Assembly (NCBI GenBank): GCA_014649555.1 | Contig: BMTG01000003.1 | Location: 186,001-250,000 of the forward strand | Direction of reading: 5' to 3' | Origin: Streptomyces globisporus | Lineage (GTDB): Bacteria > Actinomycetota > Actinomycetes > Streptomycetales > Streptomycetaceae | Length of the DNA stretch: 64,000 nucleotides | Shown: positions 15,456 through 34,363 of the stretch, piece by piece | Position numbering within the stretch: the stretch's first letter is position 1 | Layout of the letters: each line of letters opens with the position of its first letter | Translations under genes and position numbers: made by a program | Notes under the pieces: generated by a model | The model's database searches: none | The model's input: only the letters and a program-made list of their open reading frames with translations | Told to the model about the DNA's origin: nothing

Positions 15456-15459
15456 ACCG

Positions 15460-16581: not shown

Positions 16582-16600
16582 AGGAAGTACCGCAACCCAC

Positions 16601-16681
16601 ATGAGTGATCGAACGCAGCATCACAGCCCGCCCCACCAGTCCGCAGAAGGCGAGAACCCGGAAATCGCATACGAGTTCTAG
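16601..16681 (+). CDS. Candidate 26-residue peptide gene
   Basis: A small open frame 19 nt after the helical-repeat gene, with AAGGAAG about 14 nt before ATG. The peptide begins MSDRTQHHSPPHQ and ends NPEIAYEF. It has no Cys and is rich in His, Pro and acidic residues. Third-position GC is only moderate, so coding status is uncertain. Its place inside a RiPP locus makes it worth noting, either as a second peptide substrate, a leader peptide or a chance frame. Confidence 0.3.
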   Translation: MSDRTQHHSPPHQSAEGENPEIAYEF

Positions 16682-17380
16682 ATTTCGCCCGCCTCCACCC
16701 GTTACGGGGATAAGAGAACCCCCGTTACCCGATCACCAGTCCGCATCCGGCTTCAAGGATTCCCCGTGATTCCCGTACACCTCCCCGCAGTCCTTGATTC
16801 AGCGTTCGAAAACTCCACCGGCCCCTCGGGCACCGCCCTGTTCTCCGCGATCGGTAGCAACGCCCGCTCCAGCCGTGGGTTTCGACCGGATACGAGGCAC
16901 CTGGAATGACGCACGGCACCACTCCTCCGTGGCCTACTCGCGTACACCCGGACCGCAGGCGTACCAGTCCGATGCCCGTCGCGGCGCGGCCGGGCGCTGA
17001 GAGCGACCGCCGAGGCCGGGGCCATCAGCGCTCACGCGAGCAGTCTCCGGTACGACGACGGCCCCTCGGCGCGCAACTGCGATCCAGCTTCCGTCTCCCG
17101 AAGCTGAAGGGACGGGGCGCATCTCAGAGCGGGCCAGCAGGAATTCCGCGGCCTCACACGCGAATACGACCTTGTTGACGGTGCGAACCGGATCACCGCC
17201 GTATTCGTGGCCCAGCCGTCGACGGGTGAGCCGTATGGCGCTGAGCAAGACAAACACGAAGGGCTCGCCCGAGAACTGAGGAAGCGACCGTCGCTCAACC
17301 GCATCCCCATAAACGATCTTGCACATGCTCGCACATGGTCCGTTCCACCGGACCGTCAACCGGCCTGCGGGAGGCGCAAA
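16682..17380. other. Gene-poor 0.7-kb stretch before the ABC exporter
   Basis: No rightward gene is convincing here. A leftward open frame from ATG 17326 down to 16934 would encode about 130 residues beginning MCKIVYGDAVERR. It has mixed codon use and no recognisable domain, and it would be divergent from the exporter. The stretch is lower in GC than its surroundings in places. It probably holds the promoter of the exporter gene and may be the remnant of an insertion or lost gene. Confidence 0.35.
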
Positions 17381-20761: not shown

Positions 20762-22237
20762 ATGCCGTTGTCGCACCGCCACATCCGCACCACCGTCGAC
20801 GCCTATCTCGCTCGCCACCCCGACGAACGCGAGCAGCTCGGCGGCCTCCTGGACGCCCTCGACCAAACCGGCGAGGACATCGCCAGCCGCTCAACCTTCA
20901 CCGGACACATCACCTGCGGGGCGATTGTCGTCGACCAGCTCGGCCGTGTCCTGCACGTGCTGCACCTGGCCAGCGGGAAGGTCCTCGCCCCAGGAGGCCA
21001 CGCCGAACCAACCGACGACTCCCTGGCAGCAGCGGCGCTTCGGGAGCTGCGTGAGGAGACCGGAATCCCGCCCCAGGCCGTCATGCAGTGGCCGGGCTAC
21101 GCCGCGGTGCCGCTGGACATCGACATCCACGACATCGACGCCCACCCCGGCAAGGGCGAACCCTGGCACCAGCACTTCGACCTCCGGTTCCTCTTCCGCC
21201 TGCACGCGGTGGAAGAGGTGTCCGTGGAACTGCAGGAGGAAGAGATCGGTGGCATCGAGTGGCGCCCTGTGGACCGGGTGACCTCACCGACCCTGCGTGA
21301 GAAGCTGCTGAAGCTCCCGCTCCAGGTCGCACCGGAGACAGCCAACGCCTCCGCTCTGATCTACAACGATCGCGGCGAATACCTGCTCCACCTGCGCGAC
21401 TACCTCCCCGGTCAGATCTGGGAGCCGGGCAACTGGTCCCTGGTGGGCGGCGGCCGAGAGCCACAAGACGTCACCCTGGAACACACCGTCCGACGCGAAC
21501 TGGCAGAGGAAGCGGGCCTCGACCTCGCCGAACTCACCCCGTTCGACACCGAGTACGCCATCGGCGACTCCGGCGCGACCGTACCCATCGCCATCTACGC
21601 CGGCCGCTGGAACGGCGACCCTCGCAAACTCCACGTGACAGAAGGGGTGCTGCTCGTCTGGTTCCCTCCCTCGGACCTCCACCGCCTGCGCATCGCAAAC
21701 ACCACGAGCGACCTAGTACGGCGCCACGCCGCCAGCCATCCGACGACGCAGAGCGGGCCCGAACCGGAGGAAGAAGGTCCCGCCTCACCGCACGGCACGG
21801 TCCCCAACATCATCGGTGTCCATCTCTATCTGGAGAAGCCCGACGGGACGGTGCTGCTCGGGCTGCGCCACCCCAACTCCGCGTTCGCGCCGTCCACCTG
21901 GCACGTGCTGGCCGGCCACTGCGAGCAGGAGAACGCCATTGACTGTCTGATCAGGGAGGCCCGAGAGGAGGCCGGCCTGCACATCGAGCGCCAGGACATC
22001 GAACTCGTCCACGTCGTCCATCACATCGGCACACCCAAGAACCCACCCCGCATGGGCCTGTTCTTCCGCGCTCGCGCCTGGCGCGGCGAACCTGAGCTGC
22101 GCGAGCCGGACAAGTGCATCGAGTGGCGATTCTGGGATGCCGCCGCCCTGCCCGACGAACTCGTCCCCTACACCCGAATGGCCATTGCGAAGATCCAGAC
22201 CGGCGAGCTCTACAGCGAAATGGGCTGGCCTGCATGA
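20762..22237 (+). CDS. Triple-Nudix protein
   Basis: A 491-residue protein with three Nudix-type domains in tandem. The helix of each box is readable: LRELREETGI at about residue 98, RRELAEEAGL at about 243, and IREAREEAGL at about 400. Nudix enzymes hydrolyse nucleoside diphosphates linked to other groups. The upstream Gly/Glu positions of boxes 1 and 2 deviate (boxes read GGHAEPTDD and GGGREPQDV), so not all three may be catalytic. ATG 20762 has GAGGTAG upstream. It starts 55 nt after the methyltransferase and overlaps the next gene by 4 nt, opening a long run of tightly packed genes. Confidence 0.85.
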   Translation: MPLSHRHIRTTVDAYLARHPDEREQLGGLLDALDQTGEDIASRSTFTGHITCGAIVVDQLGRVLHVLHLASGKVLAPGGHAEPTDDSLAAAALRELREETGIPPQAVMQWPGYAAVPLDIDIHDIDAHPGKGEPWHQHFDLRFLFRLHAVEEVSVELQEEEIGGIEWRPVDRVTSPTLREKLLKLPLQVAPETANASALIYNDRGEYLLHLRDYLPGQIWEPGNWSLVGGGREPQDVTLEHTVRRELAEEAGLDLAELTPFDTEYAIGDSGATVPIAIYAGRWNGDPRKLHVTEGVLLVWFPPSDLHRLRIANTTSDLVRRHAASHPTTQSGPEPEEEGPASPHGTVPNIIGVHLYLEKPDGTVLLGLRHPNSAFAPSTWHVLAGHCEQENAIDCLIREAREEAGLHIERQDIELVHVVHHIGTPKNPPRMGLFFRARAWRGEPELREPDKCIEWRFWDAAALPDELVPYTRMAIAKIQTGELYSEMGWPA

Positions 22238-23499
22238 CCGCCACACCGACCAGCGCGCCCCGCCACGTGCCCGCTGCGACGGCGGCCGGACGTCCCGACA
22301 CCCGCCTCGTAGTGATCCGCGGGAACTCGGCCTCGGGCAAGTCGAGCGTCGCCCAGGGCCTACGCGATCACTGCGGCCGCGGCGTCGCCATCGTCGGCCA
22401 GGACATGATCCGCCGGAACGTCCTTCGCGAGCACGACACCACAGGCGGCGCCAACATCGCCCTGCTCGGCAAGGTCGCCCGCCATGCCCTGGACGCCGGC
22501 TTCCACGTCGTACTCGAAGGAATTCTGTACGCCGACCGCTACTGCCACATGATCACGTCACTGGTACGGGACCATCGCGGCGTCTCGGCCTGCTACTACC
22601 TCGACGTACCGCTGGCGGCGACGCTGGCCCGGCACGCCTCGAAGGCGGACGCCGCCTACCTGGAACAAGTCACCGACACCCACCTCACCTCTTGGTACCG
22701 GGAGCTGGACCTGCTGCCGGGCGGGCTGGAGACAGTGATCCCGGCCGACAGCACTCTTCAGGAGACCGTCGCCCGCATCGCGCGCGACACCGAGCCGACC
22801 GCTGCCGCCCCTGCCAAACCACCCCAGCGAAAGCCGCCACAGGGAGACCCGATGAACCTCGTGCTGATGTCCGATCCGCAGGTAGCGGCGATCCCGGTGC
22901 GCGAGTGCGGGGAGCCGCTCGTGGATGTGCGCGACCACGACTTCCGCGTCGATCCCCGCAAGCAAGATGCGCTGGGCGCGTACGCCCATGTCCGCGAGGG
23001 CGTCCTCGCCCGGTTGAAGCACGCCCGCTCCCTCCTGCCCGCCGGCATCGACCTGCTCTTCATCGAGGGCTACCGGCCGCTCAGCCTCCAGCAGCGCTAC
23101 TTCACCGAATACCGCAAGGAGTTGGCCGCCGCCCAGCCCGGCTGGACACCGAAGCAGCTGCACCAGGCCGCCAGCCGGTACGTGTCGCCGCCGGACATCG
23201 CCCCGCACTCCGCAGGCGCAGCCGTGGACGTGACCCTCGCCGACCAGGACGGCCACGAACTCGACCTCGGCACCCGCGTCAACGCTTCCCCGGAGGAGAG
23301 CAATGGGGCGTGCTTCACGCATGCCCCCAACCTCAGCGACCAGGCGCGCCACCACCGCACCCTGCTGCTCAACGTCATGGACAGCGCGGGGTTTACAAAC
23401 TACGAGACTGAGTTCTGGCACTTCTCGGCAGCGGACCGGTACGACGCTCTGATGCGGCGGGAACCGTACGCGCGCTACGGACCGATCGAACTGCCCTAG
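22234..23499 (+). CDS. P-loop kinase fused to VanX-like D-Ala-D-Ala dipeptidase
   Basis: A 421-residue fusion. Residues 20-190 form a P-loop kinase-like domain with RGNSASGKSS (Walker A), VLEGILYADRY and a lid-like Arg/His-rich segment, resembling the AAA/zeta-toxin or small-molecule kinase group. Residues 207-421 form a VanX/M15D dipeptidase: GYRPLSLQQRYF, the zinc-binding HSAGAAVDV (His and Asp) and EFWHF (catalytic Glu and zinc His), all intact. An internal ATG at 22852, after GGGAGACCC, could give the dipeptidase alone. VanX enzymes hydrolyse D-Ala-D-Ala or other dipeptides. The pairing suggests action on cell-wall precursors or on a dipeptide intermediate; both ideas are inference. Confidence 0.8.
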   Translation: MTATPTSAPRHVPAATAAGRPDTRLVVIRGNSASGKSSVAQGLRDHCGRGVAIVGQDMIRRNVLREHDTTGGANIALLGKVARHALDAGFHVVLEGILYADRYCHMITSLVRDHRGVSACYYLDVPLAATLARHASKADAAYLEQVTDTHLTSWYRELDLLPGGLETVIPADSTLQETVARIARDTEPTAAAPAKPPQRKPPQGDPMNLVLMSDPQVAAIPVRECGEPLVDVRDHDFRVDPRKQDALGAYAHVREGVLARLKHARSLLPAGIDLLFIEGYRPLSLQQRYFTEYRKELAAAQPGWTPKQLHQAASRYVSPPDIAPHSAGAAVDVTLADQDGHELDLGTRVNASPEESNGACFTHAPNLSDQARHHRTLLLNVMDSAGFTNYETEFWHFSAADRYDALMRREPYARYGPIELP

Positions 23500-23619
23500 C
23501 GCGCCGCAACCCGGCCAGGTCCTCGCCCCCGATTCAGCCCCCGAGGCCCCGGAGACGCGCTACCACCGCTCCGTGGACGCCCTGACCACGACGGACGAAA
23601 GCACCGAACGGAGGCATGT

Positions 23620-24522
23620 GTGCCTGACCACACCCAGCAGGCGATCCCAGCCGTCCCGAGCCCATCGGCCGGAGATGAACCGCCCGAGCACCACATGCAC
23701 CTGCTCGGGCGGTACTACCGGCAGGTTGAAGCCGGTCGTAAGACCATCGAAGTGAGCGTGGCCACGCCGGACAGGCGCGACATCAGCATCGGCGACACGG
23801 TCGTCTTCCACGACCGGGAGACCGGGCGGGAACTCGACGTCGCCGTGCAGCGGATCACTTCGTACCCCTCCTTCGAGGACCTGCTCCGTTCGGAGGACAC
23901 AGCGCGCATCGACCCGGACGGGCAATCCGGCGAGCTGCTGGCGAGTCTCCGCAGCATTTTCCCGCCGGCCAAGGAGGCTCTCGGCGTACTCGTGTTCGCC
24001 TTCGACCACCGCCCTGTCCGGCCCGGCCGCCCCATGCCGATGACGGCCGAGGCGTACGCGCAGACCGTCCCCCACCACACGGTGTAGGGCTGCCTCTACA
24101 TCCGCGACGAGCAGGACCGGCCGGTCCAACTCCGCTCGGTGTACGGCTCGCGGCTGTGGCAGTTCCCGGGAGGCAACCTCGACGCCCCGGACGAAGACCC
24201 CCTGCAGACTGCCCGGCGCGAGGCGGTCGAGGAAACATGCCTCGAACTCGGCCTGGGCACACCGACGCTCCTCCTGACGCACTTCCTGCACGCCGGGCCC
24301 AGCCTGCCGCTGAACAAGGTGGGGTTCATCTTCGACGGAGGGCGCCTGAGCGCCGACCAGCTCGGCCAGATCCGCCTCGACCCGGCTGAGCACGACATGT
24401 GGGCCGTCCACGATCTCGCCGCTTGGCAGGAACTGATGGCCCCGCGTGACTTCGCCCGCCTCGACGCCATCGAACGAGCCCGGCGCGGCGAGGGCCCCTC
24501 CTACCTGATCACACACGCCTGA
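23620..24522 (+). pseudogene. ASCH-Nudix fusion gene interrupted by an in-frame TAG
   Basis: One continuous 300-codon frame apart from a TAG at 24085-24087 (codon 156). The first part, from GTG 23620 after GGAGG, is an ASCH-type RNA/nucleotide-binding domain (HLLGRYYRQVEAGRKTIEV). The second part is a Nudix domain (LWQFPGGNLD, then RREAVEETCLELG). The stop falls at the start of the first Nudix strand, between VPHHTV and GCLYIRDEQ, where a Tyr codon would fit. The Nudix Gly after EET is Cys. A nonsense change plus a lost motif residue suggest decay, but the downstream frame has no other damage, so a two-protein product (Nudix from GTG 24139) or readthrough remains possible. Confidence 0.75.
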
Positions 24523-24550
24523 CCCCAGCACCCCCACCCAGGAGGCAACC

Positions 24551-25735
24551 GTGTTCGCTGAGGACACCAACACCCGGGCCTGGCAGATCTACGGCCAGAG
24601 ACAGCTCGACCGCGCCTACTCGCCGCCCATCCCCGACCGGCTCAGCTGGACGCCCTGGGATGGGCTCGGGCCGGGAGCGGAAGTCCTCGGCGACGTCACC
24701 GGCCGCCGTGTCCTGGACATCGGCTCCGGAGCCGGCCACCACGCCGTCCACCTCGCCCAGGCACACGGAGCGCGCGTCACCGGCATCGAGTTGTCCCCAA
24801 CCCAGCACGAACGCGCCTTCTCCGCCCACTCGGACGTGGACGGCGTGGAATTCCTCCAGGCAGACGTGACCGAGTACCTGGCCAAAGCCGAGCCGTTCGA
24901 CGCCGCGTACGCGATCGGGACGCTCGCCTTCGTCGATCCGCACCGCTCGCTGCCGGCCCTGCGCGACGGCCTGCGTCCCGGCGCTCCGCTGATCCTCTCG
25001 CTCCTGCACACCGACCTGCATGGCCTCGGCCCGTCCACCGAGGTGGCACCGCGCGAGCAGATGATCCTGCTGAGCGACGACCCGCCGCTGCCGACCCAGA
25101 TGTGGGTCTTGGCGCCACAGCTTTGGGAGGACCTGCTCACCGAGTACGGCTTCCGCGTCGAAGCCATCAACCTCTTCCCGCACCCGGACCAAGGCGCCTC
25201 GGTTGTTCAGCAGCTCCTCCGCGCCCGGCGCCTTTCCCATCGGTCGGCGCGCGTGGCCAGCCGGCCCCGTAGCACCCGAGCCCCGGCCGCCCACGCGGCC
25301 GTCGGCGTCGGAGCGATCCTGCTCAGCGAGCAGGGCATCCTGCTGGGACGGCACCAGCGCGGCACCCTGGAACTGCCCGGCGGCAGCGTGGAGGGGGACG
25401 GGGAATCCTTCGAGGACGCGGTCGTGCGCGAACTCGCCGAGGAGACCGGTCTGGTCGCTCGAACCAGCGACGTGGAACTGCTTGGCACACTCGTCGATCA
25501 CGTCGACGGCGTACTACGAGTCACCGTCGGTGCGCGGGTCCACACCTGGCAAGGCCAACCGGTCACGCAGCCGGTGGAGAGCGTCGGTGAGTGGGCTTGG
25601 TATCCGCTCGATCAGCTTCCCAACGGGCTGTTCGTATGCAGCGCCCAGATTCTCACGGCCTGGCGGCCCGATCTGCCCATCGACCACCCGCCGGCGCACT
25701 TCACGGCTTTCGCCCAGGCCCCGTGGCGCCGCTAG
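24551..25735 (+). CDS. SAM methyltransferase fused to a Nudix domain
   Basis: A 394-residue two-domain protein. Residues 45-220 are a class I methyltransferase with RVLDIGSGAGHHA at about 53 and the acidic strand-2 end GIELSPTQ. Residues 255-385 are a Nudix domain with LELPGGSVEGDGESFE and VRELAEETGL, an intact box. GTG 24551 follows GGAGG. The fusion suggests a nucleotide-linked or sugar-nucleotide-like substrate that is methylated and then hydrolysed, or a housekeeping-style role in clearing a modified nucleotide. Its neighbours on both sides encode Nudix or radical-SAM-like enzymes. Confidence 0.85.
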   Translation: MFAEDTNTRAWQIYGQRQLDRAYSPPIPDRLSWTPWDGLGPGAEVLGDVTGRRVLDIGSGAGHHAVHLAQAHGARVTGIELSPTQHERAFSAHSDVDGVEFLQADVTEYLAKAEPFDAAYAIGTLAFVDPHRSLPALRDGLRPGAPLILSLLHTDLHGLGPSTEVAPREQMILLSDDPPLPTQMWVLAPQLWEDLLTEYGFRVEAINLFPHPDQGASVVQQLLRARRLSHRSARVASRPRSTRAPAAHAAVGVGAILLSEQGILLGRHQRGTLELPGGSVEGDGESFEDAVVRELAEETGLVARTSDVELLGTLVDHVDGVLRVTVGARVHTWQGQPVTQPVESVGEWAWYPLDQLPNGLFVCSAQILTAWRPDLPIDHPPAHFTAFAQAPWRR

Positions 25736-25827
25736 CACGCGAGCCGTCGCCGACTGCTCTTGCGACAGGGCATTGGTGCCGCACCCCGGCAGCAACACAC
25801 ACCGCATCAACCAAGCTGGAGTTCTTC

Positions 25828-26946
25828 ATGCCGCATCTGTCCATGCGCCGGTCCATACCTTCGGCGAACGCCGTCGGGGCCGCCCGACTGCACGATCTGG
25901 AGCAGACTGCCCTGCGCCACGGAGTCCCCGTCGAGGACGTGCTGCTGATCGCCGTCAACTTGCACGGGATCACCTCCGTCCACGAACGCAATCGGGCCCG
26001 GGTAAACCTCCGACTCGCTCGCCGTCCCGACACAACCTGGCAGATCATCGTCCCGTTGAACCAGCCGGCCAGCCCATTCCGGCTCTGCGGCGACGAGCTG
26101 TCGCTGAACGGCTCGGTGGTCGCGCACGTCGAGCGCATCGACGCCGACGAAGCCGTCGGCGGGTACTTCCGCAACGACGGCCGGGCCGCGACCCTCAACC
26201 CGAACGCGCGCAGTCGGTGCGTCGGGTGCGGCTGGTGCCCGAACACCTTGGAGGCCGCCGCCGACCCGAGAATGCAGGAGGAGCAAGGGCTCGATGCCCT
26301 GCTGCGGGCCCTCGGCGAGCAGCACCCCCGCCGCAGCCTGGCCGAACTGGAGGAAGTCACCGTCTCCACCGGCTGCTTCGAGCGCGAAGAAGCCGCCGTC
26401 GCACATCTGACCGCTTTGCGCCGCGCCCTGGAGAGGGCCGACGTCACAGCCCGAATCGGCTTCCTCACCTCCGTGCTCCGCACCGACGAGGCGTTCGAGA
26501 CGATCGCGTCGCAGGTGTCACCGTTCGTGCTCAGGCTGACGGCCGAACACTTCACCCGACGCGAGGCCCTCATGAAGGCCACCAAGGCTGACCTTCGTCC
26601 GGAGCAAATGCCGAACCTGCTGGCACGGGCACGTAAGGCAGGGCTTGACACGTCGTACACGTACATCGCCGGGATCGACCCGCTGGACGACCTCACACGC
26701 GGCGTGAACGAGCTGGTGGACGAGGTCACTGTGTTCCCGAACATCCAGGTCTTCCAGGCACACAATCTGATCATGCAGGGGATGCGAACGCCGGGCGCGG
26801 AGAGCCTGGCGTACTACCTGCACGCGCGCACGCTGATCGAGCGGACCCTGGCGCCGACCGGGCTACGGCCGGCGAGCTGGGAGTGCTATCGCCCTTTGTG
26901 GTACTTCACCTTCGCGGGAGAGGACCTCGTCGATGGACCCCACTGA
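25828..26946 (+). CDS. Radical-SAM-like protein with a CX2CX2C motif
   Basis: A 372-residue protein. The cysteine motif RCVGCGWCPN is at about residue 130, with spacing CX2CX2C rather than the usual radical-SAM CX3CX2C. Downstream it follows a TIM-barrel pattern like biotin-synthase-type radical SAM enzymes: EVTVSTGCFEREE, LRLTAEHFTRREALM, TSYTYIAGIDPLDD, then VFQAHNLIMQGMR. It is therefore probably an iron-sulfur SAM enzyme, with the unusual cluster motif as the main doubt. ATG 25828 is preceded by CTGGAG. It overlaps the enolase-superfamily gene by 14 nt, so the two are coupled and may act in sequence. Confidence 0.65.
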   Translation: MPHLSMRRSIPSANAVGAARLHDLEQTALRHGVPVEDVLLIAVNLHGITSVHERNRARVNLRLARRPDTTWQIIVPLNQPASPFRLCGDELSLNGSVVAHVERIDADEAVGGYFRNDGRAATLNPNARSRCVGCGWCPNTLEAAADPRMQEEQGLDALLRALGEQHPRRSLAELEEVTVSTGCFEREEAAVAHLTALRRALERADVTARIGFLTSVLRTDEAFETIASQVSPFVLRLTAEHFTRREALMKATKADLRPEQMPNLLARARKAGLDTSYTYIAGIDPLDDLTRGVNELVDEVTVFPNIQVFQAHNLIMQGMRTPGAESLAYYLHARTLIERTLAPTGLRPASWECYRPLWYFTFAGEDLVDGPH

Positions 26947-27982
26947 CGCAGTCATCGATCGGGTACGGGTCGAGCGCCTGGACGAGGACGTCGCCGGCCC
27001 GTGGGCGAGGGGCGACAGCCGGTTCGCGGTCGTGGTCGAGGCCGGCGGAATGGACGGAGTGTTCGCCCCAGTCGACGAGCTGCCCGCTGCGCTCGTCGCC
27101 ACATGGCTCGGCCAGAGCGCGCTGCGCCACCCGGTGACCGACCACACCGGGCTGCTGCGCAGACTGCTGGCAGAACTCGGCCCGCACTCGGCAGGACTCG
27201 GCCGGTGGGCGGTCGGGGCGCTGGACTGCGCAGTGTGGGACCTGCACGGCCGCCTCGCCGACCTCCCGGTCGCGGCCCTGCTCAGCGACCGGCCCACACC
27301 GCAGGTCCCGGTCTATGCCTCCTGGTTGTCCCTGGACCTGAACGCGGCGTCGGCCGCCGAGTCGGTCAAGGCGACTGCCGGTGAGGGGTTCGCCTTCACC
27401 AAGTGGGCCCTGCGCGACGCCGAAGTCCGAGAGATCGCGCTGCTGGCCAGACGGGCGGCGGAGTGGGCGGGACAGAGTGTGGCGCTGGACGCCCTGGGCA
27501 CCTGGGGTCACCTGCGGACCATGGACGTCGCACCGCTCCTCGACCCGGAGGCGGTGCGCTGGGTGGAGGACCCGCTCGCGCGGACCGACCGGACCGCATA
27601 CACGCGGCTGCGCTGCCGGTCGGAGGGCCTTCCGGTGGCGTTCGGCGAGCGGTTGTCGCATGTGGAGGACGCCAGGGCGTTACTGGAGGTCTGCCGGCCG
27701 GAGGCGTTCACGTTCGACGCGGTGTGGTGTGGCGGCATCACCGAGGCGCAAGGCTGGCTGGGCGCCGCCCACGACGTGAGGGTGCCGGTCCACCTGCACG
27801 GCCGGGCGTTCCTGCCCGCCGTGCACCTGGCCGCAGCCTTCCCCCACGCGGCGGGGGCAGTGGAGTACCAGGTGGTGTGGGAGCCGAGGCGGCAGCGGGC
27901 GCTGCGCGGCACGCTCCGGCCCGACGGCGGACACGTCGTTCTCCCCGACCGGCCCGGCCTCGGGGTGGAGGTGCGCCGGTAA
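26933..27982 (+). CDS. Enolase-superfamily enzyme (muconate-lactonising/mandelate-racemase group)
   Basis: A 349-residue protein with the capping domain and barrel of the enolase superfamily. Candidate catalytic residues appear in order: Lys in FTKWAL (about 158), Asp in ALDALGTW (about 185), Glu in WVEDPL (about 211), Glu in AFGERL (about 237) and a His in VHLHGRAF (about 287). The family abstracts an alpha proton next to a carboxylate, for epimerisation, dehydration or cycloisomerisation. Dipeptide epimerases belong here, which would fit the neighbouring dipeptidase. A TTA codon at 27680 makes translation bldA-dependent. The stop TAA shares its last A with the next ATG. Confidence 0.82.
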   Translation: MDPTDAVIDRVRVERLDEDVAGPWARGDSRFAVVVEAGGMDGVFAPVDELPAALVATWLGQSALRHPVTDHTGLLRRLLAELGPHSAGLGRWAVGALDCAVWDLHGRLADLPVAALLSDRPTPQVPVYASWLSLDLNAASAAESVKATAGEGFAFTKWALRDAEVREIALLARRAAEWAGQSVALDALGTWGHLRTMDVAPLLDPEAVRWVEDPLARTDRTAYTRLRCRSEGLPVAFGERLSHVEDARALLEVCRPEAFTFDAVWCGGITEAQGWLGAAHDVRVPVHLHGRAFLPAVHLAAAFPHAAGAVEYQVVWEPRRQRALRGTLRPDGGHVVLPDRPGLGVEVRR

Positions 27983-28431
27983 TGCCGAGGCACACAGGCG
28001 AACTGGCGGTCCACGGCCACCTGCGGCAGCGCGAAGGGAAGATGCTGCTCGTCGTGGACGAGCGGCTGAGCGGGCACGACACCTTCCTGTCCACGACCCT
28101 GCGCCTCGAACAGCCGGTGCACGAGCCCGAACTCGCGGTGCAGATCCTCACGTTCGACGACGTCACCGTCCTGTCTCCCCTCTCCCTCGCCCTGCCGCAG
28201 GAGCGAGCCGGCGAGGGGTGGAGCGGCACGCTGCTGGTTCCGCACGGTGCCCGCCCGCCGGCGATCCCCGACGACCTCGCCAAAGCGCTTGCCAAAGCCG
28301 GCGTCGACACCGGTGGCTGGTCGTCGGCCGAGGCCCGGCATCTGCTGACCTTCCTCGGCGAGGCCGGGGCCGCATCCGTGCGTACCGAGCGGATAGCCAT
28401 GATCATCACGACCCTGCGAGGCCGTTCGTGA
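27982..28431 (+). CDS. Hypothetical protein in the Nudix-rich operon
   Basis: A 149-residue protein that I do not recognise. The first half is beta-rich (ELAVHGHLRQREGKMLLVV, TTLRLEQPVHEPELAVQIL). The second half has two helices with DDLAKALAKAGVDTGGW and SAEARHLLTFLGEAG. No membrane segment, signal peptide or metal motif is seen. It is locked into the operon by a 1-nt overlap at its start (TAATG) and a 4-nt overlap at its end (GTGA), so it is certainly coexpressed with the enolase-like and HAD proteins and may be a partner or small unfamiliar enzyme. Confidence 0.7.
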   Translation: MPRHTGELAVHGHLRQREGKMLLVVDERLSGHDTFLSTTLRLEQPVHEPELAVQILTFDDVTVLSPLSLALPQERAGEGWSGTLLVPHGARPPAIPDDLAKALAKAGVDTGGWSSAEARHLLTFLGEAGAASVRTERIAMIITTLRGRS

Positions 28432-29126
28432 ACGCGGCGCCGGTGCGGCTGGTGAGCCTCGATGTCGGGTACACCCTGGGCGAGCCGTCCGGGACGACAC
28501 TGACGCAGCGCCTGGTGGAACTGTCCCCGCGCCCGGCGCGCGAAGCGAAGCAGGTAGCCCAGCAGATCCTGCACGCTCTGGACCCGAGCATGGACACGAC
28601 GGGGCCGCAGGCGGTGTGCGCCGCCCTGGGCATTGCGCCGTCCGCCTTTCCCTACGACCACCGTCCGCCCGCCTTCGCCCTGTGGACAGGCGCGGTGGAG
28701 GCGGTGGCCCGGATCGCCAGGGTCGTGCCGGTGGTCACCCTGTCGAACGTGAGCCACTGGGACGAGGGGGAGACCGACGTCGCCGCCCTTCTGACCCCCC
28801 ACCTCCGAGCCCACCACCCCTCCTGGCGCATCGGGTTCGCCAAACCGGACCCGCGTGCCGTGGAGACTGTTGCGCGGCTGCACGACCGGGATCCCGCGGA
28901 GGTGCTGCACGTCGGCGACAGCGTCGACTACGACGTGTGCGGCGCCGTCGCCGCCGGCGCCCAGGCCCTGTGGATCACCCCGCGCCCGCCGTCGGCCGAA
29001 GAACGCCGACTGCTGGCCGAGCACCCCGGTCGGGTCACGGTCGTGCCGGACCTCGCCCGCGCGGTCCGGCACATCGAACAGACCCTCCCCTCGTCAACCC
29101 CGCCCACCAGGAGCACCACACCGTGA
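28428..29126 (+). CDS. HAD-superfamily phosphatase
   Basis: A 232-residue HAD-like hydrolase. The four motifs are present: motif I SLDVGYTLGEP near residue 10 (nucleophile Asp; the second Asp is replaced by Tyr/Thr), motif II VTLSNVS, motif III Lys in GFAKPDPRAV, and motif IV VLHVGDSVDYDV. The change at the second motif I position, usually an Asp acid/base, may lower or alter phosphatase activity. It starts with GTG inside the preceding stop and ends with GTGA into the next methyltransferase gene. A phosphatase following a kinase-bearing gene suggests a phosphorylated intermediate. Confidence 0.82.
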   Translation: MNAAPVRLVSLDVGYTLGEPSGTTLTQRLVELSPRPAREAKQVAQQILHALDPSMDTTGPQAVCAALGIAPSAFPYDHRPPAFALWTGAVEAVARIARVVPVVTLSNVSHWDEGETDVAALLTPHLRAHHPSWRIGFAKPDPRAVETVARLHDRDPAEVLHVGDSVDYDVCGAVAAGAQALWITPRPPSAEERRLLAEHPGRVTVVPDLARAVRHIEQTLPSSTPPTRSTTP

Positions 29127-29902
29127 GCCAGTTCGAAACCACCGCCCCGTTCTACGCCGCCTACCGGCCCGGCATCCCGAAGGAGGCCGTCGAGCTGCTC
29201 GCCCGGCGGGTGGCCGGCCAGGAGCACCGGCTCCTGCTCGACCTCGGGTCCGGCACCGGGCAGGTCCCCCTCGCCCTGGCCGGGGAGGTGACGGACATCG
29301 ACGTCGTAGAGCAGGACGCGGGGATGCTCGCCGAGGCGGACAAGGCGCTCGCCGGGCTGCCGGTCACCGTCCGCCTGCACAGGACCCCGGCCGAGCAGTT
29401 CACCCCGCCCGCCTCCTACCGGGCCGACCTGGTCACGGTCTGCCGCGCGTTCCACTGGATGGATCACGGCCTGGTGCTGTCTCGGTTGGAGGGCATGACC
29501 GCGCCGAACGCGACCGTCGCGGTCATGGGCGACGGCAGCCTGTGGACCGCGCGCACCGCGTGGACCGACGCCCTGCGCGCCCTGATCCAGGAGTACCTGG
29601 GCAAGGAGCGGCGGGCCGGGGCGGGCAAGACGTACGCGGCGCACAACCGACCGTACCGCGAGATCCTCGCCGAGTCCGCCTTCGGCCAGGTCCAGGAGCA
29701 CACCATCGCAGTCGAGCGGGAGTGGACCACCGACATGGTGATCGGCTACCTGTACTCGACCTCCTTCGCCGCCCGGCCGCTGTTCGGCGAGCGGGTCGAC
29801 GACTTCGAACGCCGTGCCCGGGCTCTGCTCGACGAGCACACCGCCGCCGGCGGCCTGACCGAGCACGCCTCCTTCCAGGTCGTCCTCGGCCAGCGCGGCT
29901 GA
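29123..29902 (+). CDS. Class I SAM-dependent methyltransferase
   Basis: A 259-residue methyltransferase of the Methyltransf_11/25 type. It begins QFETTAPFYAAYRPG, typical for this group, and has the SAM motif LLDLGSGTGQVPLAL at about 36 and the strand-4 motif VTVCRAFHWMDH at about 108. The substrate cannot be told. GTG 29123 overlaps the HAD stop. A gap of 79 nt with an AGGAG site separates it from the first dioxygenase gene. Confidence 0.85.
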   Translation: MSQFETTAPFYAAYRPGIPKEAVELLARRVAGQEHRLLLDLGSGTGQVPLALAGEVTDIDVVEQDAGMLAEADKALAGLPVTVRLHRTPAEQFTPPASYRADLVTVCRAFHWMDHGLVLSRLEGMTAPNATVAVMGDGSLWTARTAWTDALRALIQEYLGKERRAGAGKTYAAHNRPYREILAESAFGQVQEHTIAVEREWTTDMVIGYLYSTSFAARPLFGERVDDFERRARALLDEHTAAGGLTEHASFQVVLGQRG

Positions 29903-29981
29903 CCCGCGCCTCCCTCTTCGCCGGGGCGGCCCCTCTTCCCGCCCCGGCCTCCTGTCCCGTCCTTCCTGAAGGAGATCCAAC

Positions 29982-30752
29982 ATGCCTCGACCCGAGATAT
30001 GGAGCGCCGACGAACAGCGCCGGTTCGTCGACGACGGCGTCCTCATACGCCGTGGCCTGGTCAACGGCAACCTTCTGTCCCGGGCCCGTGACCTCGTCGG
30101 CGGCTGGCTGACCGAGGCGTACGACCCCGCACGGCTCACCGCCTACACCGAACGCAGTTTCGCCCCCGAGCTGGAAGAGCACCCCGACCTCCTCGCCCTC
30201 TACCACCGCAGTGGGCTGGTGGAGCTGGCCGAGGACCTGCTGCTGCCCTCCTGGATCTCCCCGGTCACCCGGGCGCAGATCCAGATCCGGCTGCCGCACG
30301 GCGCCGAGCAGCCGGTAAAGCGGATGCACGTCGACGGCGTCTCCTGCCCCCACCTGGAACCGTCCGACCTGCGCACCTTCAGCTTCATCATCGGCGTCGT
30401 CCTGGACGGCAGCGCCACCGCGGACGCCGGCGCTCTGCACTACGTGCCCGGCGGGCACCACCGGATGGCCCGCTACTTCGCCACCAACTGGACCCTGGGG
30501 CAGCCGGCCCAGACCCCCGACGACATCGACGCCCAGGACGGCACCGCCTTCACCGCCGAGCCCGGCGACGTGGTCGTGATGCACCACCTCGTCCCGCACC
30601 GGGTCGGCATCAACACCAGCAGCACCCCCAGGGTGATGGCGTACTTCCGTATCCAACACGCCCAGCACCCCGACCTCGCCCTGGCCGCCCTGTCGGACCC
30701 GTGGCTGGAGTACCCGGCGCTCGCCGACCTCGCCCGCCCCGGCACCGCGTGA
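29982..30752 (+). CDS. Phytanoyl-CoA-dioxygenase-like Fe(II)/2-oxoglutarate oxygenase (first copy)
   Basis: A 256-residue PhyH-family oxygenase. The metal triad is visible: HVDG (His-x-Asp) at about 110 and the distal His in LVPHRVG at about 206. The 2-oxoglutarate Arg follows in TPRVMAYFRI. GALHYVPGGHHR is a typical core segment. Enzymes of this family hydroxylate, halogenate, epoxidise or cyclise in natural-product pathways. ATG 29982 follows AGGAGAT. A second, only distantly similar PhyH gene lies at the end of the operon, so two oxidation steps are likely. Confidence 0.88.
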   Translation: MPRPEIWSADEQRRFVDDGVLIRRGLVNGNLLSRARDLVGGWLTEAYDPARLTAYTERSFAPELEEHPDLLALYHRSGLVELAEDLLLPSWISPVTRAQIQIRLPHGAEQPVKRMHVDGVSCPHLEPSDLRTFSFIIGVVLDGSATADAGALHYVPGGHHRMARYFATNWTLGQPAQTPDDIDAQDGTAFTAEPGDVVVMHHLVPHRVGINTSSTPRVMAYFRIQHAQHPDLALAALSDPWLEYPALADLARPGTA

Positions 30753-30766
30753 AGGGGCGGAGCACC

Positions 30767-31420
30767 GTGGACGTCCTCACCCCCGACCAGCTCCCCGCCG
30801 CCGCCCGGCTCCTGGCCGCCGGGCAGCTGGCCGCCGTGCCCACCCCGCGCTGGTACATGCTCTGTGCCCGCGCCGCCGACCCGGCCGCCACGGACGCGGT
30901 CTTCCGCGCCAAGCAGCGCCCCACCGACAAGCCGCTGCTGCTCCAGCTCGACTCCCCGGCCACGGCCGCGGACCTGTTCGACCTGAGCGTCGACGCCCGC
31001 CTGCTGGCCGGCGCCCTGTGGCCGGGGGACCTCGCGCTGCGCCTTCCCTGGAAGCTGGACGCGAAGGCCGTCTCGGCGGTCGGCTCCCCGGCGCTCGTCG
31101 GATACCCCGACGGGATCTTGGGCCGCCTCGTCGCCCTGGTCGGCGAACCGCTCGCCGCCGCCGTGTGCAGCATCTCCACCCGCGCCGCCGGCGAGCAGGA
31201 CCTCCCGGCGCTCACCGCCGCCCAGGTCGCCGCCTTCGAACGGACCACGCGGGCCGGGATCGCCGCGGTCGTCGACGGCGGGATCTGCCCGCACGGCCGG
31301 CACATGACCATCGTCGACTGCCCTGCGGGCACCCCGGCCCGCCTGGAGCGGGAAGGCACCGTCCACGCCCGCGCCGTCGAAGCCGCCCTCACCAAGCCGG
31401 GAGGACCGCATGTGGGCTGA
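30767..31420 (+). CDS. YrdC/Sua5-like protein
   Basis: A 217-residue protein of the YrdC/Sua5/YciO fold. It shows AAVPTPRWYMLCARA in place of the usual nucleotide-binding strand and FRAKQRPTDKPLLLQL, the Lys-Arg signature that binds the threonylcarbamoyl-adenylate or RNA, followed by LWPGDLALRL. Housekeeping versions make threonylcarbamoyl-AMP for tRNA modification; paralogues in secondary metabolism carbamoylate small molecules. This copy is short and divergent, so a specialised role is more likely. GTG 30767 follows GGGGCGG; a GTG at 30749 overlapping the previous stop is the alternative. It overlaps the phosphoketolase by 11 nt. Confidence 0.72.
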   Translation: MDVLTPDQLPAAARLLAAGQLAAVPTPRWYMLCARAADPAATDAVFRAKQRPTDKPLLLQLDSPATAADLFDLSVDARLLAGALWPGDLALRLPWKLDAKAVSAVGSPALVGYPDGILGRLVALVGEPLAAAVCSISTRAAGEQDLPALTAAQVAAFERTTRAGIAAVVDGGICPHGRHMTIVDCPAGTPARLEREGTVHARAVEAALTKPGGPHVG

Positions 31421-33530
31421 CCTCGCCCGCCGCACGAACCGCCTGGTGCCCGACGCGTCGGTGGCCGCCGTCGCCAACGTGCTCGACTACCTCTGTCTCG
31501 CCCAGCTCTACCTGCGCGACAACCCGCTCCTGGCCCGGCCCCTGACCCCGGCCGACATCAAGCCCCGGCCGGCCGGGCACTGGGGGGTGTGCCCGCCCGT
31601 CAACCGGATGCTCGCCGCCCTGGGGCCGCTCCAGGCGGCCGTCCCCGACGGCTACGAACTTCACGTCCTGCACGGCGCCGGGCACGCCGGGCCCTCCGCC
31701 CTCGCCCACGCCTACCTCACCGGCCGGCTCGGCAACGCCCACCCCGGCCTGTCCCCGGGCGAGGCCGGACTGCGCGAACTCGTCTCCGGCTTCCCCCGGG
31801 CCGATATCGGCGGGGAGATCACCCCGATGATCCCCGGCCACCTGCACACCGGAGGCCAGCTCGGGCCCGCCCTCGCGATCGGGCAGGGCACCGTCCTCGA
31901 CGCCCCCCACCGCCTGTCGGTGGTCCTGATCGGCGACGGGGAGTGCGAGACCGGGACGACCGCCGCCTCCTGGCTCGCCACCCGCGCCCTGCACGGTACG
32001 GGCGACCACGGCACCGTCCTTCCCATCATCCTGCTCAACGGACTGCGCATGGGCGGCCCGAGCCTGCTGTCCACCCTGAGCCACACCGAACTCACCGCCT
32101 ATTTCACCGGACTTGGGCACCGGCCCGTCTACAGCGACGGACTCGACACCGGCCGGCTCCGCCAGGCGCTGGCCGAAGCGCTCGCCGCCGCCCAGCCTCT
32201 GGGCATCCCGGGCACCTCCAGCGTCCTGGTGCTCACCCTGGACAAGGGCCACGGCGCCCCCGGCCGCCTCGCCGGCACCCCGGCGGTCCACAAGACGCCG
32301 CTGGGCGACCCCGCCGGCGTGCCCGCCGAGTTCGACGCGCTCGCCGAATGGCTGGCCTCCTACCAACCCGCCCAGCTCCTCACCCCCGGAGGCCGGCCCC
32401 GGCCGCACCTGTTGCCCGCGCTCCCGCGGCCCCGGCCCGAGCCCGGCGGACTTCCGGCACCGCGCGGCTGCATCGCCGCCTCCGCCCAGGTCGCCGTCCA
32501 CGCCGCCGGGCGCCCGTTCGCGCAGGTAGTACCCGAGGTCCTGCGGGCCCGCGCCGAGCAGGGACCGTTCCGGGTATTCAGCCCCGACGAGCTGGCGTCC
32601 AACCGCCTCGACCTCACCGACGAGCACGGACGCCCGGCGCCGTGGCTGGTCGAAGTCCTCAGCGAGGAGCTGTGCCACGCCTGGGCCCAGGGCTACACCG
32701 AGACCGGCCGCCACGCGCTCGTCGCCACCTACGAGGCGTTCGCGCCGATCACCCTCAGCCTCATCCAGCAGCAGCTCAAGCACCGCTCCGTGCGCCGGCA
32801 CGCCGGGCTCGCCCCGCTGCCCAGCCTCGCCTACCTCCTGACCAGCCTCGGCTGGCACAACACCCTCACCCACCAAAACCCCAGCCTCACCACCGCACTT
32901 CTGGCCGACGCCGACCCCACGCTCCACGTCCTCACCCCCGCCGACCCCGCACGTACCGCCGCCGCCCTCACCTTCGCCCTGCGCAAGCTCGACCGGTGCA
33001 CGATCGTCGTCGCGGGCAAGCACACGGCCGTCCAGCACCCGCTGGCGACCGTCGACGAGGAGCTGCGGCATGGGATCGCGATCTGGCCGCACCTGACCCA
33101 CCCCGGCCTCGGCGAGCCCGATCTGATCCTCGCCTCCGCCGGCGACCTGCCCGCCGAGGCCCTGACCGCCCTCGCCCGGCGGCTTCGCGCCGAACGCCCA
33201 GAGTTACGCCTTCGGTACGTCCACGTCCACGACCTCACGGCCCTCGCCGAGGACGGCACACGCCCCCTCGCCCTCTCCCCGGCCGCCTTCGCCCGCCACT
33301 TTGGCACCCGGGCGCCGATCATCCTGGCTACCAGCGGACACCCCGCCGACATCCACGCACTTCTCGGCCGCCGCCACCCCGGCCCCCGGCTCACCGTCCT
33401 CGGCTACCGCGACCCCGGCCGCCCCGTCTCCCAGGAACACCTCCGCAGGCTCTGCGGCCTCGACGACGCCGGCCTGTGGACGCTCGCCACCACCCTCACC
33501 GGCACCCCGAAGGAGACACCGGTCCCATGA
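31410..33530 (+). CDS. Phosphoketolase-like thiamine-diphosphate enzyme, short form
   Basis: A 706-residue member of the xylulose-5-/fructose-6-phosphate phosphoketolase family, which cleaves ketose phosphates to acetyl phosphate with thiamine diphosphate. The N-terminal block reads LAQLYLRDNPLL and IKPRPAGHWGVCPP. The diphosphate-binding motif IGDGECETGTTAASW lies at about 172, with ILLNG closing it, and the C-terminal third has ATYEAFAPI. Usual family length is near 800, so about 90 residues are missing across the protein. Local family residues differ (LHGAGHAGPSAL), suggesting a changed substrate. A TTA codon at 33204 indicates bldA control. It overlaps both neighbours. Confidence 0.85.
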   Translation: MWADLARRTNRLVPDASVAAVANVLDYLCLAQLYLRDNPLLARPLTPADIKPRPAGHWGVCPPVNRMLAALGPLQAAVPDGYELHVLHGAGHAGPSALAHAYLTGRLGNAHPGLSPGEAGLRELVSGFPRADIGGEITPMIPGHLHTGGQLGPALAIGQGTVLDAPHRLSVVLIGDGECETGTTAASWLATRALHGTGDHGTVLPIILLNGLRMGGPSLLSTLSHTELTAYFTGLGHRPVYSDGLDTGRLRQALAEALAAAQPLGIPGTSSVLVLTLDKGHGAPGRLAGTPAVHKTPLGDPAGVPAEFDALAEWLASYQPAQLLTPGGRPRPHLLPALPRPRPEPGGLPAPRGCIAASAQVAVHAAGRPFAQVVPEVLRARAEQGPFRVFSPDELASNRLDLTDEHGRPAPWLVEVLSEELCHAWAQGYTETGRHALVATYEAFAPITLSLIQQQLKHRSVRRHAGLAPLPSLAYLLTSLGWHNTLTHQNPSLTTALLADADPTLHVLTPADPARTAAALTFALRKLDRCTIVVAGKHTAVQHPLATVDEELRHGIAIWPHLTHPGLGEPDLILASAGDLPAEALTALARRLRAERPELRLRYVHVHDLTALAEDGTRPLALSPAAFARHFGTRAPIILATSGHPADIHALLGRRHPGPRLTVLGYRDPGRPVSQEHLRRLCGLDDAGLWTLATTLTGTPKETPVP

Positions 33531-34363
33531 GCACCCCACCCACGCCCGCCGCCCTCGACGCCGACACCATCGACGACTTCGAACGCGACGGGTACGCGAT
33601 CATCCGCGACGCGATCACCCCGGACCTGCGCGACCGGCTCCTGACCGCCGCCGAGAAGCTGCTGGCCAGCGACATCACCCAGGGCCGCGACCGAGGAGGC
33701 GACGGCAAAGACGGCTTCCGCGGATGCCTCAACCTCCATCCCGCCTTCCTCCCACTGCTCGCCAACCCGAACGTGCTGCCCACCGTCGTCCACCTCCTCA
33801 GCCCGAACATCCACCTGCTCTCCGCCCACCTCATCGCCCTGCCCAGCGGCCTGCCCCGCACCATCCGCATCCCCGAACGCCACGGCTGGCACCGCGACAT
33901 GTACGGCGTCACCGCCGACCTCGGCTTCCCGAACACCCCCCGGATGGCGATCAAGGCCGCCCACTACCTCACCCCCCTCACCCCCGACTGCGGGCTGACC
34001 ATGCTCCTCCCCGGCAGCCACCTCCTCACCGAAGAACCCGCCGTCCCCGCCGGCTCCATCGACCCGCCCGGCGCCATCACCCCCGACATCACCGGCACCG
34101 ACGCGGTGCTCTTCGAGAACCGGACCTGGCACACCGGAGGCATCAACCTCTCCGGCCTCCCCCGCCTCGCCCTGATGCTCCAGTACGGATACCGCTGGCT
34201 CCACCCCGTCGACGACCCCGCCACCGACCTCCGGAAGAACCCCGCCCTCACCCCGATCGAGCAACAGCTCCTGGGGCTACCCGACCGCCAACCCGACGGA
34301 TCCCTCGCCAAGGGCAGCGGAGCAGCACCCATCCGTGCTTGGTACGCCGCAAACAGCCAGTGA
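33527..34363 (+). CDS. Phytanoyl-CoA-dioxygenase-like oxygenase (second copy)
   Basis: A 278-residue PhyH-family Fe(II)/2-oxoglutarate oxygenase. DDFERDGYAIIRDAI is the usual N-terminal block. The metal ligands are in HGWHRDMYG (His-x-Asp) at about 125 and TWHTGGINL at about 203, with Arg in GLPRLALMLQYGYRW. It is closer to the ectoine-hydroxylase-like group than the first copy. ATG 33527 overlaps the phosphoketolase stop. It is the last gene of the run; the next gene is convergent, and only weak hairpins are seen in the 89-nt gap. Confidence 0.88.
   Translation: MSTPPTPAALDADTIDDFERDGYAIIRDAITPDLRDRLLTAAEKLLASDITQGRDRGGDGKDGFRGCLNLHPAFLPLLANPNVLPTVVHLLSPNIHLLSAHLIALPSGLPRTIRIPERHGWHRDMYGVTADLGFPNTPRMAIKAAHYLTPLTPDCGLTMLLPGSHLLTEEPAVPAGSIDPPGAITPDITGTDAVLFENRTWHTGGINLSGLPRLALMLQYGYRWLHPVDDPATDLRKNPALTPIEQQLLGLPDRQPDGSLAKGSGAAPIRAWYAANSQ

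Follow-up and report, generated by a model that had tools for sequence, protein, structure and literature searches.

Several described systems come close to parts of the locus analysed here. In the radical SAM superfamily (PF04055) the usual cluster motif is CX3CX2C, to which exceptions exist, and the wording CxxCxxC for the whole superfamily is taken here as a slip. Other single proteins of the locus are nearest to the mandelate racemase/sugar-acid dehydratase branch of the enolase superfamily, to the phosphoketolases (XFP) of Bifidobacterium and cyanobacteria (8io8), and to the PhyH-family enzyme EvdO2, which we take to be an orthosomycin (oligosaccharide) oxygenase. FxLD lanthipeptide clusters are described systems as well, and one is the immediate upstream neighbour of the genes studied. 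The literature searched offered nothing relevant on this gene combination, and no description of a counterpart to the pathway proposed below was found in it.

The window is a 64,000-nucleotide stretch of a contig from the soil actinomycete Streptomyces globisporus. Gene calling by codon bias gave 14 open frames on the + strand between 20762 and 34363. Two of these (23620-24087 and 24139-24522) lie in the same frame with an in-frame stop between them (codon 24085-24087) and are the halves of a single ASCH-Nudix gene, the relatives of which were a single 300-aa protein in all five cases inspected. The run therefore comprises 13 same-strand genes, one of them broken by a stop, which agrees with the thirteen rightward genes of the preliminary description; the overlaps of 1-14 nt reported there were seen at 7 of 12 junctions. 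The enzyme families it named were likewise recovered by Pfam and NCBIfam: three Nudix-bearing proteins, an AAA_33 kinase with an M15 dipeptidase, two methyltransferase domains, an enolase-superfamily enzyme, a HAD protein, two PhyH oxygenases, a Sua5/YrdC protein and a phosphoketolase. None of the Pfam matches in the run suggested a PKS, NRPS or terpene enzyme. The features were as follows:

9996..20706, + strand: FxLD lanthipeptide locus; neighbour, outside the core
20762..22237, + strand: g18, triple-Nudix protein; accessory block, outside the conserved core
22234..23499, + strand: g19, AAA_33 kinase with M15/VanX-like dipeptidase; accessory block
23620..24522, + strand: g20+g21, ASCH-Nudix gene broken by the in-frame stop; accessory block
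24551..25735, + strand: g22, methyltransferase-Nudix fusion; accessory block
25828..26946, + strand: g23, radical-SAM-like protein, 372 aa, CX2CX2C (C131, C134, C137); anchor of the conserved operon
26933..27982, + strand: g24, enolase superfamily (mandelate racemase/sugar-acid dehydratase type), 349 aa
27982..28431, + strand: g25 (u25), unknown 149-aa protein
28428..29126, + strand: g26, HAD hydrolase with DxG in place of DxD as its nucleophile motif
29123..29902, + strand: g27, class I SAM-dependent methyltransferase
29982..30752, + strand: g28, PhyH Fe/2-oxoglutarate oxygenase
30767..31420, + strand: g29, Sua5/YrdC-like protein (TIGR00057 61.8 bits, cut-off 123.2)
31410..33530, + strand: g30, divergent phosphoketolase, 706 aa; ThDP site kept, pocket altered
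33527..34363, + strand: g31, second PhyH oxygenase

The run consists of two units, and the conserved one is the nine genes g23-g31 (25828-34363). In 72 loci fetched solely by means of the radical-SAM-like gene, the remaining eight core genes were present in 20-52 loci, while window genes g1-g10 and g34-g56 were each present in at most three of the same loci (E <= 1e-5 in both cases), so the association of the core genes is far beyond chance. Of 58 related loci that could be scored, 9 had exactly the window's order (radical-SAM-like, enolase superfamily, unknown, HAD, methyltransferase, PhyH, YrdC, phosphoketolase, PhyH), and two sister layouts accounted for 17 and 10. Layouts could be scored in 58 of 60 high-GC loci; L062 and L089 were not called. 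No exporter or self-resistance gene recurred with the core across all layouts. Upstream of the core, g18 was present in 7 of 72 loci (one of these, L090, a lone Nudix match) and g19, g20/21 and g22 in five each (L090 included for g22); on this distribution (5-7 of 72 loci), a single unit spanning all 13 genes was rejected. What had been described as an unrecognised 13-gene operon is thus a conserved gene set of smaller extent, 25828-34363 rather than 20762-34363. We estimate a probability of roughly 60% that this interval is a self-contained, horizontally transferred operon making a small polar, probably sugar-derived metabolite. The polar small-molecule chemistry suggested earlier agrees with the enzymes, which fit polar, probably sugar- or phosphate-bearing small molecules; the product may or may not be nucleotide-linked, as that description also proposed.

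The preliminary description had offered the alternative that the core enzymes tailor the peptide of the FxLD locus, which is adjacent to the run and co-directional. Its precursor is encoded at 9996-10178 (TIGR04363), with TIGR04364 methyltransferases at 13413-15455 and 19396-20706. Seven of the 72 loci had FxLD-type genes upstream of the core (at least 87% identity to g14 in six, 35% in L025), and a whole-genome check of L050 placed an FxLD methyltransferase 18.5 kb upstream in the same orientation, which makes the linkage a trait of the window's clade. Among the 12 family genomes bearing the g23-type marker gene, a TIGR04364 methyltransferase above cut-off lay within 10 kb of the marker in only three (the window's genome, G190, G226). 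In the other nine it was at least 100 kb off or on another contig (G072, G078, G124, G169, G179, G195, G217) or absent (G021, G037). Even loci sharing the window's layout had it about 150 kb away (L002) or on another contig (L026, L048), and in these three no FxLD or Nudix-block gene was found within 10 kb upstream of the core. Because the Nudix/kinase block (20762-25735) and the FxLD genes join the core only in the window's clade, and not elsewhere in the genomes measured, lanthipeptide tailoring is unsupported and highly improbable. The upstream genes would instead be separate cargo, linked to the core in one Streptomyces clade.

The core contains two unusual enzymes, the first of which is g23. 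Its family was aligned from the window and 57 of the 72 loci. Those left out were mostly near-copies (L020, L022, L023, L032, L034, L038, L039, L043, L046, L050), together with a broken frame (L052), stops in the matched range (L053, L062) and partial sequences (L082, L089). The motif CX2CX2C was present in 58 of 58 aligned relatives and CX3CX2C in none. The family resembles the radical SAM superfamily in having three cysteines near the start of the matched region and, in several members, a match to PF04055 downstream of them; it differs in the spacing of the motif and in a region of about 125 residues that precedes it. PF04055 was reached by 20 of 58 members at E <= 0.01 (best 3.6e-8) and missed by 38. 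The window protein itself gave E = 0.11, and its profile comparison with a canonical radical-SAM protein was weak (hhalign probability 4.7%). The earlier radical-SAM-like name draws on the matches of the relatives rather than on the window protein by itself. Literature on a CX2CX2C variant yielded nothing relevant beyond a 2009 review, which prints CxxCxxC as the motif of the whole superfamily (PMC2763108).

The second is g30, which had the full phosphoketolase architecture with all domains above cut-off (XFP_N 188.6, XFP 103.9, XFP_C 78.9 bits). It is shorter than most solved homologues (706 versus 796-845 aa) and falls under the NCBIfam subfamily cut-off (523 versus 777 bits). In all 47 cluster copies first compared (called copies longer than 550 aa, that of the window among them), the pocket had H142 replaced by E, Q321 by K and Q546 deleted (Bifidobacterium numbering), whereas H/Q/Q was kept in 10 of 10 housekeeping phosphoketolases. 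The canonical pocket with H142, Q321 and Q546 was thus not found in the g30 subfamily. Nine further frames comprised six complete copies with the same E/K/deletion pocket, two fragments (L052, L068) concordant where covered, and a Mycobacterium copy with R rather than K at 321 (E/R/deletion); the copies of L010-L012, on the other strand, were left out. Phosphoketolases from Treponema and a contig labelled archaeal also had the E/K/deletion pocket. Residues of the ThDP site, phosphate site and proton donors were retained (H64, H97, G155, H320, S440, E479, Y501, N549 and H553 in at least 45 of 47 copies), with pocket-residue roles taken from PMC6435721 and PMC10547157.

The 47 cluster phosphoketolases formed one clade apart from the housekeeping copies, and the window's genome has a separate housekeeping phosphoketolase on another contig. 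Among the best 30 of 216 plasmid phosphoketolase records, seven had at least 41% identity to g30, all with the marker gene, and the remaining 23 had 31-37%. Phylogeny and residues together suggest that g30 is a phosphoketolase dedicated to the operon. A position parallel to that of the phosphoketolase was occupied in two CPR loci (L075, L076) by relatives of the split ThDP enzymes sulfopyruvate/phosphonopyruvate decarboxylase, adjoining a g23 relative and a methyltransferase; these belong to another ThDP family, and the CPR matches were below NCBIfam cut-offs.

Among the remaining core genes, g24 had an MR_MLE_C domain (107.9 bits) and conserved D186, E212, E239, K157, D262 and H289 (53 sequences, columns at >=95%), presumably three acidic metal ligands and His/Lys bases, which places it with the mandelate-racemase type. 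Among enolase-superfamily matches it was closest to sugar-acid dehydratases, although far under every listed equivalog cut-off (best, L-talarate/galactarate dehydratase, 74 versus 500 bits). HAD similarity of g26 was below NCBIfam cut-offs. The sole solved relative of g28 at E <= 0.01 was EvdO2 (E 1.2e-5), in an alignment spanning only about 90 residues; the Pfam matches of the operon, moreover, include no glycosyltransferase. The second oxygenase, g31, was present in type I and III operons and in 0 of 25 type-II loci. A sugar-like product is suggested by the sugar-acid dehydratases nearest g24 and by EvdO2, similarities that are weak (E about 1e-5).

For such a product we propose the following scheme, in which all reactions, their sequence and the type of compound are inferred. 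The radical-SAM-like Fe-S enzyme g23 would commit the pathway by altering the carbon skeleton of a phosphorylated sugar or nucleotide-like substrate, and g30 would next cleave the resulting alpha-hydroxyketone using ThDP and phosphate, its substrate probably being other than xylulose-5-P or fructose-6-P. To our knowledge, such C-C bond cleavage by a phosphoketolase has no precedent in secondary metabolism. Dehydration or epimerisation of a sugar-acid-like intermediate is predicted for g24 and removal of a phosphate for g26; g28 and g31 would oxidise, g27 would methylate, and g29 may activate or carbamoylate via an acyl-adenylate. A catabolic role would also account for the enolase and the phosphoketolase: an unusual sugar acid or a phosphonate/sulfonate-like nutrient would be broken down, and the dehydratase and phosphoketolase would supply central metabolism with acetyl phosphate. 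The sugar-acid dehydratase matches, the retained ThDP and phosphate-site residues and a patchy plasmid-borne distribution all fit nutrient genes. We nevertheless consider breakdown unlikely: neither an uptake transporter nor a sugar kinase or aldolase belongs to the recurring layouts, a catabolic pathway would not typically include two oxygenases, a methyltransferase and a radical-SAM-like enzyme, and all 47 phosphoketolases first compared have the changed pocket.

Type-III operons carry a further protein. In these, u25, for which no Pfam family was found above cut-off, is fused to or beside a GGDEF-domain protein; the GGDE motif is kept in all 17 loci having one, and the fusion, judged by length, is present in 12. 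A GGDEF protein also follows the g23-type copy on the contig labelled archaeal, and deep g23 relatives are flanked by DAC-like (matches below the Pfam cut-off), GrpB or GGDEF proteins. The product could then be a nucleotide-derived signalling molecule or cofactor, with GGDEF-u25 carrying out a nucleotidyl transfer that types I and II have lost or perform with YrdC instead. This is improbable: the GGDEF gene was in no type I or II locus with a called layout, the single-domain match was slightly under the Pfam cut-off (21.8 versus 23.8 bits), and the protein may have a regulatory role. A pathway opening the GTP ring (ArfA/ArfB-like) through GGDEF and a creatininase was rejected, the genes being in different layout types (III and II) and the creatininase better matched by MftE than by ArfB (125.7 versus 24.0 bits), although the archaeal contig has both genes.

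The marker gene was found in 12 of 297 genomes of the family and 5 of 394 of the class (each count including the window's own genome) and in eight plasmid records from Streptomyces, Nocardia and Mycobacterium, of which six were inspected. One plasmid copy lay about 7 kb from a type I-U cas3. In the trees, g23 of type I grouped with type II and g30 of type I with type III. AU tests rejected the swapped grouping for XFP (p = 0.0004; L059, L077 left out) and for the radical-SAM-like tree with outgroup (p = 0.013; long-branch rows L059, L077, L081 left out). Without outgroup I+III was not rejected (p 0.57), since an unrooted three-group tree cannot decide. The trees indicate that the core is a recombinant of two lineages, and the best reading is a horizontally spread, plasmid-borne unit repeatedly passed between bacteria.

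Plasmid carriage, the cas3 neighbour and the nucleotide-handling proteins beside deep g23 relatives would also suit a nucleic-acid modification or defence-like cassette, in which YrdC, the radical-SAM-like enzyme, the methyltransferase and an oxygenase act on RNA or DNA. Against it, PADLOC-DB 2023 matched none of nine of the ten proteins searched and g27 only as a generic methyltransferase (mad2), and the phosphoketolase and enolase would have no obvious role, so that such a function is very unlikely; a known anti-phage defence system was set aside. No g23 relatives were found in phages or viral contigs, which also speaks against such a cassette, and a phage origin of the core was set aside.

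Returning to the metabolite operon, we know of no recognised core enzyme of genome-mining rules in it, and tools that seek such enzymes would be expected to miss it. A more specific version is possible but tentative: the CX2CX2C enzyme would feed the phosphoketolase with the re-tooled pocket as the core of a plasmid-borne actinobacterial operon, the type-III GGDEF protein would be a biosynthetic nucleotidyltransferase rather than a c-di-GMP maker, and the pathway class would have no described example. The altered pocket predicts new ThDP chemistry, and the phosphoketolase and PhyH genes, apparently exchanged as a pair between lineages, give a hint as to which genes work together. With the CX2CX2C/phosphoketolase pair, an entire family of hidden pathways could be searched for in a simple way. 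This pair also occurs on the archaeal MAG contig; an oral spirochaete has it too, together with ABC transporter genes and a protein that by eye is BtrH-like.

The conserved unit in the window was g23-g31, which encode, in order, a radical-SAM-like protein, an enolase-superfamily enzyme, a protein here called u25, a HAD protein, a methyltransferase, a PhyH oxygenase, a Sua5/YrdC-like protein, a phosphoketolase, and a second PhyH protein. The run of 13 genes reported in the preliminary description was real; between 20762 and 34363 a codon-bias caller placed 14 + strand frames, two of them halves of a single ASCH-Nudix gene parted by an in-frame stop. Domain searches returned the domain assignments already proposed, and the reported overlaps were present at seven of the 12 junctions of the run. 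The ASCH-Nudix gene was uninterrupted (300-aa protein) in all five relatives examined; the stop may mark a true pseudogene or stem from an error in sequencing. The features referred to below are:

9996-20706: FxLD lanthipeptide locus, including the two methyltransferases listed next
13413-15455: TIGR04364 methyltransferase, fused to a thiopeptide-type domain
19396-20706: second TIGR04364 methyltransferase
23620-24522, + strand: interrupted ASCH-Nudix gene, in-frame stop at 24085-24087
25828-34363, + strand: core genes g23-g31

The bait for collecting relatives was g23, which no Pfam family matched at E ≤ 0.01. These relatives occurred in eight plasmid records, 12 of 297 Streptomycetaceae family genomes, and five of 394 class genomes (the window's own genome is counted in both). 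All 56 genes called in the window were then used to search the 72 g23 loci in the genome collection at E ≤ 1e-5. Core genes were found, nearly always on the same strand, in 50 (g24), 36 (g25), 44 (g26), 52 (g27), 33 (g28), 32 (g29), 50 (g30), and 20 (g31) loci. At the same threshold g1-g10 and g34-g56 were each found in at most three loci, and g12-g22 in 2-12. The 60-aa precursor g11 was found in none of the 72; the loci extend no further than 10 kb upstream of g23, so that g11-g14 would often lie beyond them. Directly downstream of the core, two loci had g32 and 11 had g33, which belongs to a common regulator type. Because g24-g31 recurred in 20-52 of the 72 loci and the flanking genes rarely, the 13-gene unit initially proposed was narrowed to g23-g31, leaving out the Nudix/kinase accessory block g18-g22. 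Only one locus (L024) contained every gene of g18-g31.

The accessory block and FxLD genes accompanied the core only in close relatives (e.g., L021, L022, and L024). Two loci (L019, L023) contained FxLD genes and g22 and were missing g18-g21; four (L002, L026, L048, L050) contained no accessory-block or FxLD genes within 10 kb upstream of g23. In NCBIfam g11 was assigned to TIGR04363, and g14 and g17 to TIGR04364. FxLD linkage was measured genome-wide using methyltransferases above the TIGR04364 cut-off, present anywhere in 138 of 297 family genomes. Among the 12 g23-bearing family genomes, this methyltransferase was within 10 kb of g23 in three (the window's own genome, G190, and G226), at least 100 kb off or on another contig in seven, and missing above cut-off from the whole genome in two. 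In loci of the window's layout (type I) outside those 12 genomes it was ~150 kb off (L002) or on another contig (L026, L048); in L050, also type I, it was 18.5 kb upstream.

The gene order seen in the window was conserved elsewhere, type I (g23-g31) occurring in nine of 58 scorable high-GC loci. Type II (17/58) was ordered radical-SAM-like gene, phosphoketolase, enolase, u25, HAD, methyltransferase, creatininase, PhyH, YrdC. Type III (10/58) was ordered radical-SAM-like gene, enolase, HAD, GGDEF, phosphoketolase, PhyH, methyltransferase. The remaining scorable loci had truncated or variant layouts. The radical-SAM-like gene alone was called in three loci (L058, L060, L082), although a translated search still recovered enolase and phosphoketolase pieces in L060. 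All 17 loci with the GGDEF protein had its GGDE motif; judged by length, the protein was fused to u25 in 12 of them and was a separate protein in five. Type-III examples of this domain within a metabolic operon were L006:12831-13454 and L007:12911-14071.

Hosts of g23 included Streptomyces, Actinoplanes, Salinispora, Nocardia, Geodermatophilus, and Saccharopolyspora, and g23-bearing plasmids included those of Nocardia farcinica and Mycobacterium intracellulare. On a Streptomyces avidinii plasmid (L004) a type-II operon lay ~7 kb downstream of a type I-U CRISPR cas3. An apparently complete copy occurred on a groundwater contig labelled Thaumarchaeota (L059), with adjacent HAD, methyltransferase, creatininase, phosphoketolase, radical-SAM-like, g25-like, PhyH, enolase, YrdC, and GGDEF genes and a weakly ATP-grasp-like gene. 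This contig looks archaeal because a neighbouring gene resembles, by eye, archaeal TFB. Treponema lecithinolyticum contained radical-SAM-like, phosphoketolase, and HAD genes in that order; next came ABC transporter genes and a protein that looked BtrH-like by eye but had no Pfam match.

In the g23 tree, type I grouped with type II (100% SH-aLRT) and type III lay apart. With outgroup rows an enforced I+III grouping was rejected (p-AU 0.013); without the outgroup the AU test did not reject it. In the phosphoketolase tree, type I was nested in type III (97%) and I+II was rejected (p-AU 0.0004). Median identity of g23 was 63% to type II and 43% to type III, and that of g30 was 41% and 53%, respectively. 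Among actinobacterial loci g28 and g29 were confined to types I and II, and g31 to types I and III. Together, the trees, identities, and gene distribution make the window operon look recombinant: it resembles a type-II operon minus its own phosphoketolase and creatininase, plus a type-III phosphoketolase-PhyH pair. Such a swap would suggest that type-II and type-III phosphoketolases perform the same step.

A separate housekeeping phosphoketolase was encoded on another contig (C6) of the same genome, and the 47 compared cluster phosphoketolases formed a single clade (99%). Pockets were compared at 13 residues listed for the Bifidobacterium enzyme in PMC10547157, with numbering checked on 8io6. 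Nine of the 13 were retained in at least 45 of the 47 cluster copies, and H548 was variable (H in 31/47, including the window's). All 47 had E for H142, K for Q321, and a deletion of Q546. Identical changes occurred in the Treponema and archaeal-contig enzymes and in six more complete cluster phosphoketolases; the Mycobacterium cluster enzyme had E, R, and the deletion, and ten of ten housekeeping enzymes had H, Q, Q. PMC6435721 reports that H142 and G155 accelerate the dehydration step and that H64, Y501, and N549 bind phosphate; PMC10547157 reports that H142N and Q321A change activity on small substrates. The retained residues suggest ThDP/phosphate chemistry for g30, and the changed residues suggest a substrate other than the usual one. 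Phosphoketolases occurred in 216 of 72,556 plasmid records. Among the best 30 of these 216, seven had at least 41% identity to g30, all in records that also contained a g23 relative, and the other 23 had 31-37%; the Mycobacterium record lay outside the best 30.

All 58 g23 relatives contained CX2CX2C (C131, C134, and C137 in the window protein) and none contained CX3CX2C, the usual radical-SAM motif form. PF04055 was matched by 20 of 58 family members at E ≤ 0.01 (best 3.6e-8). When ten members were scanned one at a time, four matched at E ≤ 0.1, with every match beginning near the cysteine motif; window g23 by itself had no significant PF04055 match. A canonical radical-SAM family gave only a weak profile-profile match (probability 4.7%, against 0.1% for an enolase-family control), although the cysteines were aligned in it. 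The protein is here called radical-SAM-like, short of proven superfamily membership. Deep g23 relatives adjoined split ThDP decarboxylases and a methyltransferase (L075, L076), a GrpB-type protein (L083, by Pfam; other GrpB neighbours by eye), and DAC-like proteins under the Pfam cut-off (L081, L090), making ThDP enzymes and nucleotide-handling proteins recurring partners. In CPR and Bacilli/Erysipelotrichaceae MAGs (L079, L083-L088) the GrpB-family neighbours, identified mostly by eye, were sometimes accompanied by histidine phosphatases.

The 53 enolase-superfamily sequences retained D186, E212, E239, K157, D262, and H289, the PhyH proteins HxD...H, the creatininase its H/E/D residues, and YrdC its K/R, all of which we take to be functional; the HAD motif was DxG. 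We take u25 to resemble YdeI/DUF1905-type proteins. EvdO2 was the only solved relative of g28 at E ≤ 0.01. Those of g31 were, by their names, presumably mostly fungal natural-product oxygenases, together with one "putative oxygenase".

A catabolic role is the main rival to the reading that g23-g31 direct the synthesis of a small polar compound. The biosynthetic reading fits the enzyme set (a dedicated phosphoketolase paralogue, a phosphatase, a methyltransferase, and two oxygenases), the patchy, plasmid-borne distribution, and the module exchange. Within it, sugar-like chemistry is favoured, if weakly founded, from the enolase, phosphoketolase, and EvdO2 links. Searches of open-licence full-text papers found no description of the gene combination or cysteine motif.

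Elsewhere in the window, a MobA/VirD2-type relaxase gene (47267-48994) and an IS110-type transposase gene (50676-52058) give the operon's surroundings on the 619-kb contig a mobile-looking character. An ATP-grasp/L-amino-acid-ligase-like gene and an MFS transporter gene lie close together at 59644-62456 (- strand) and may represent a separate small-peptide pathway. Roadblock-like and small GTPase-like genes at 5171-7290 resembled, by eye, part of a conservon.
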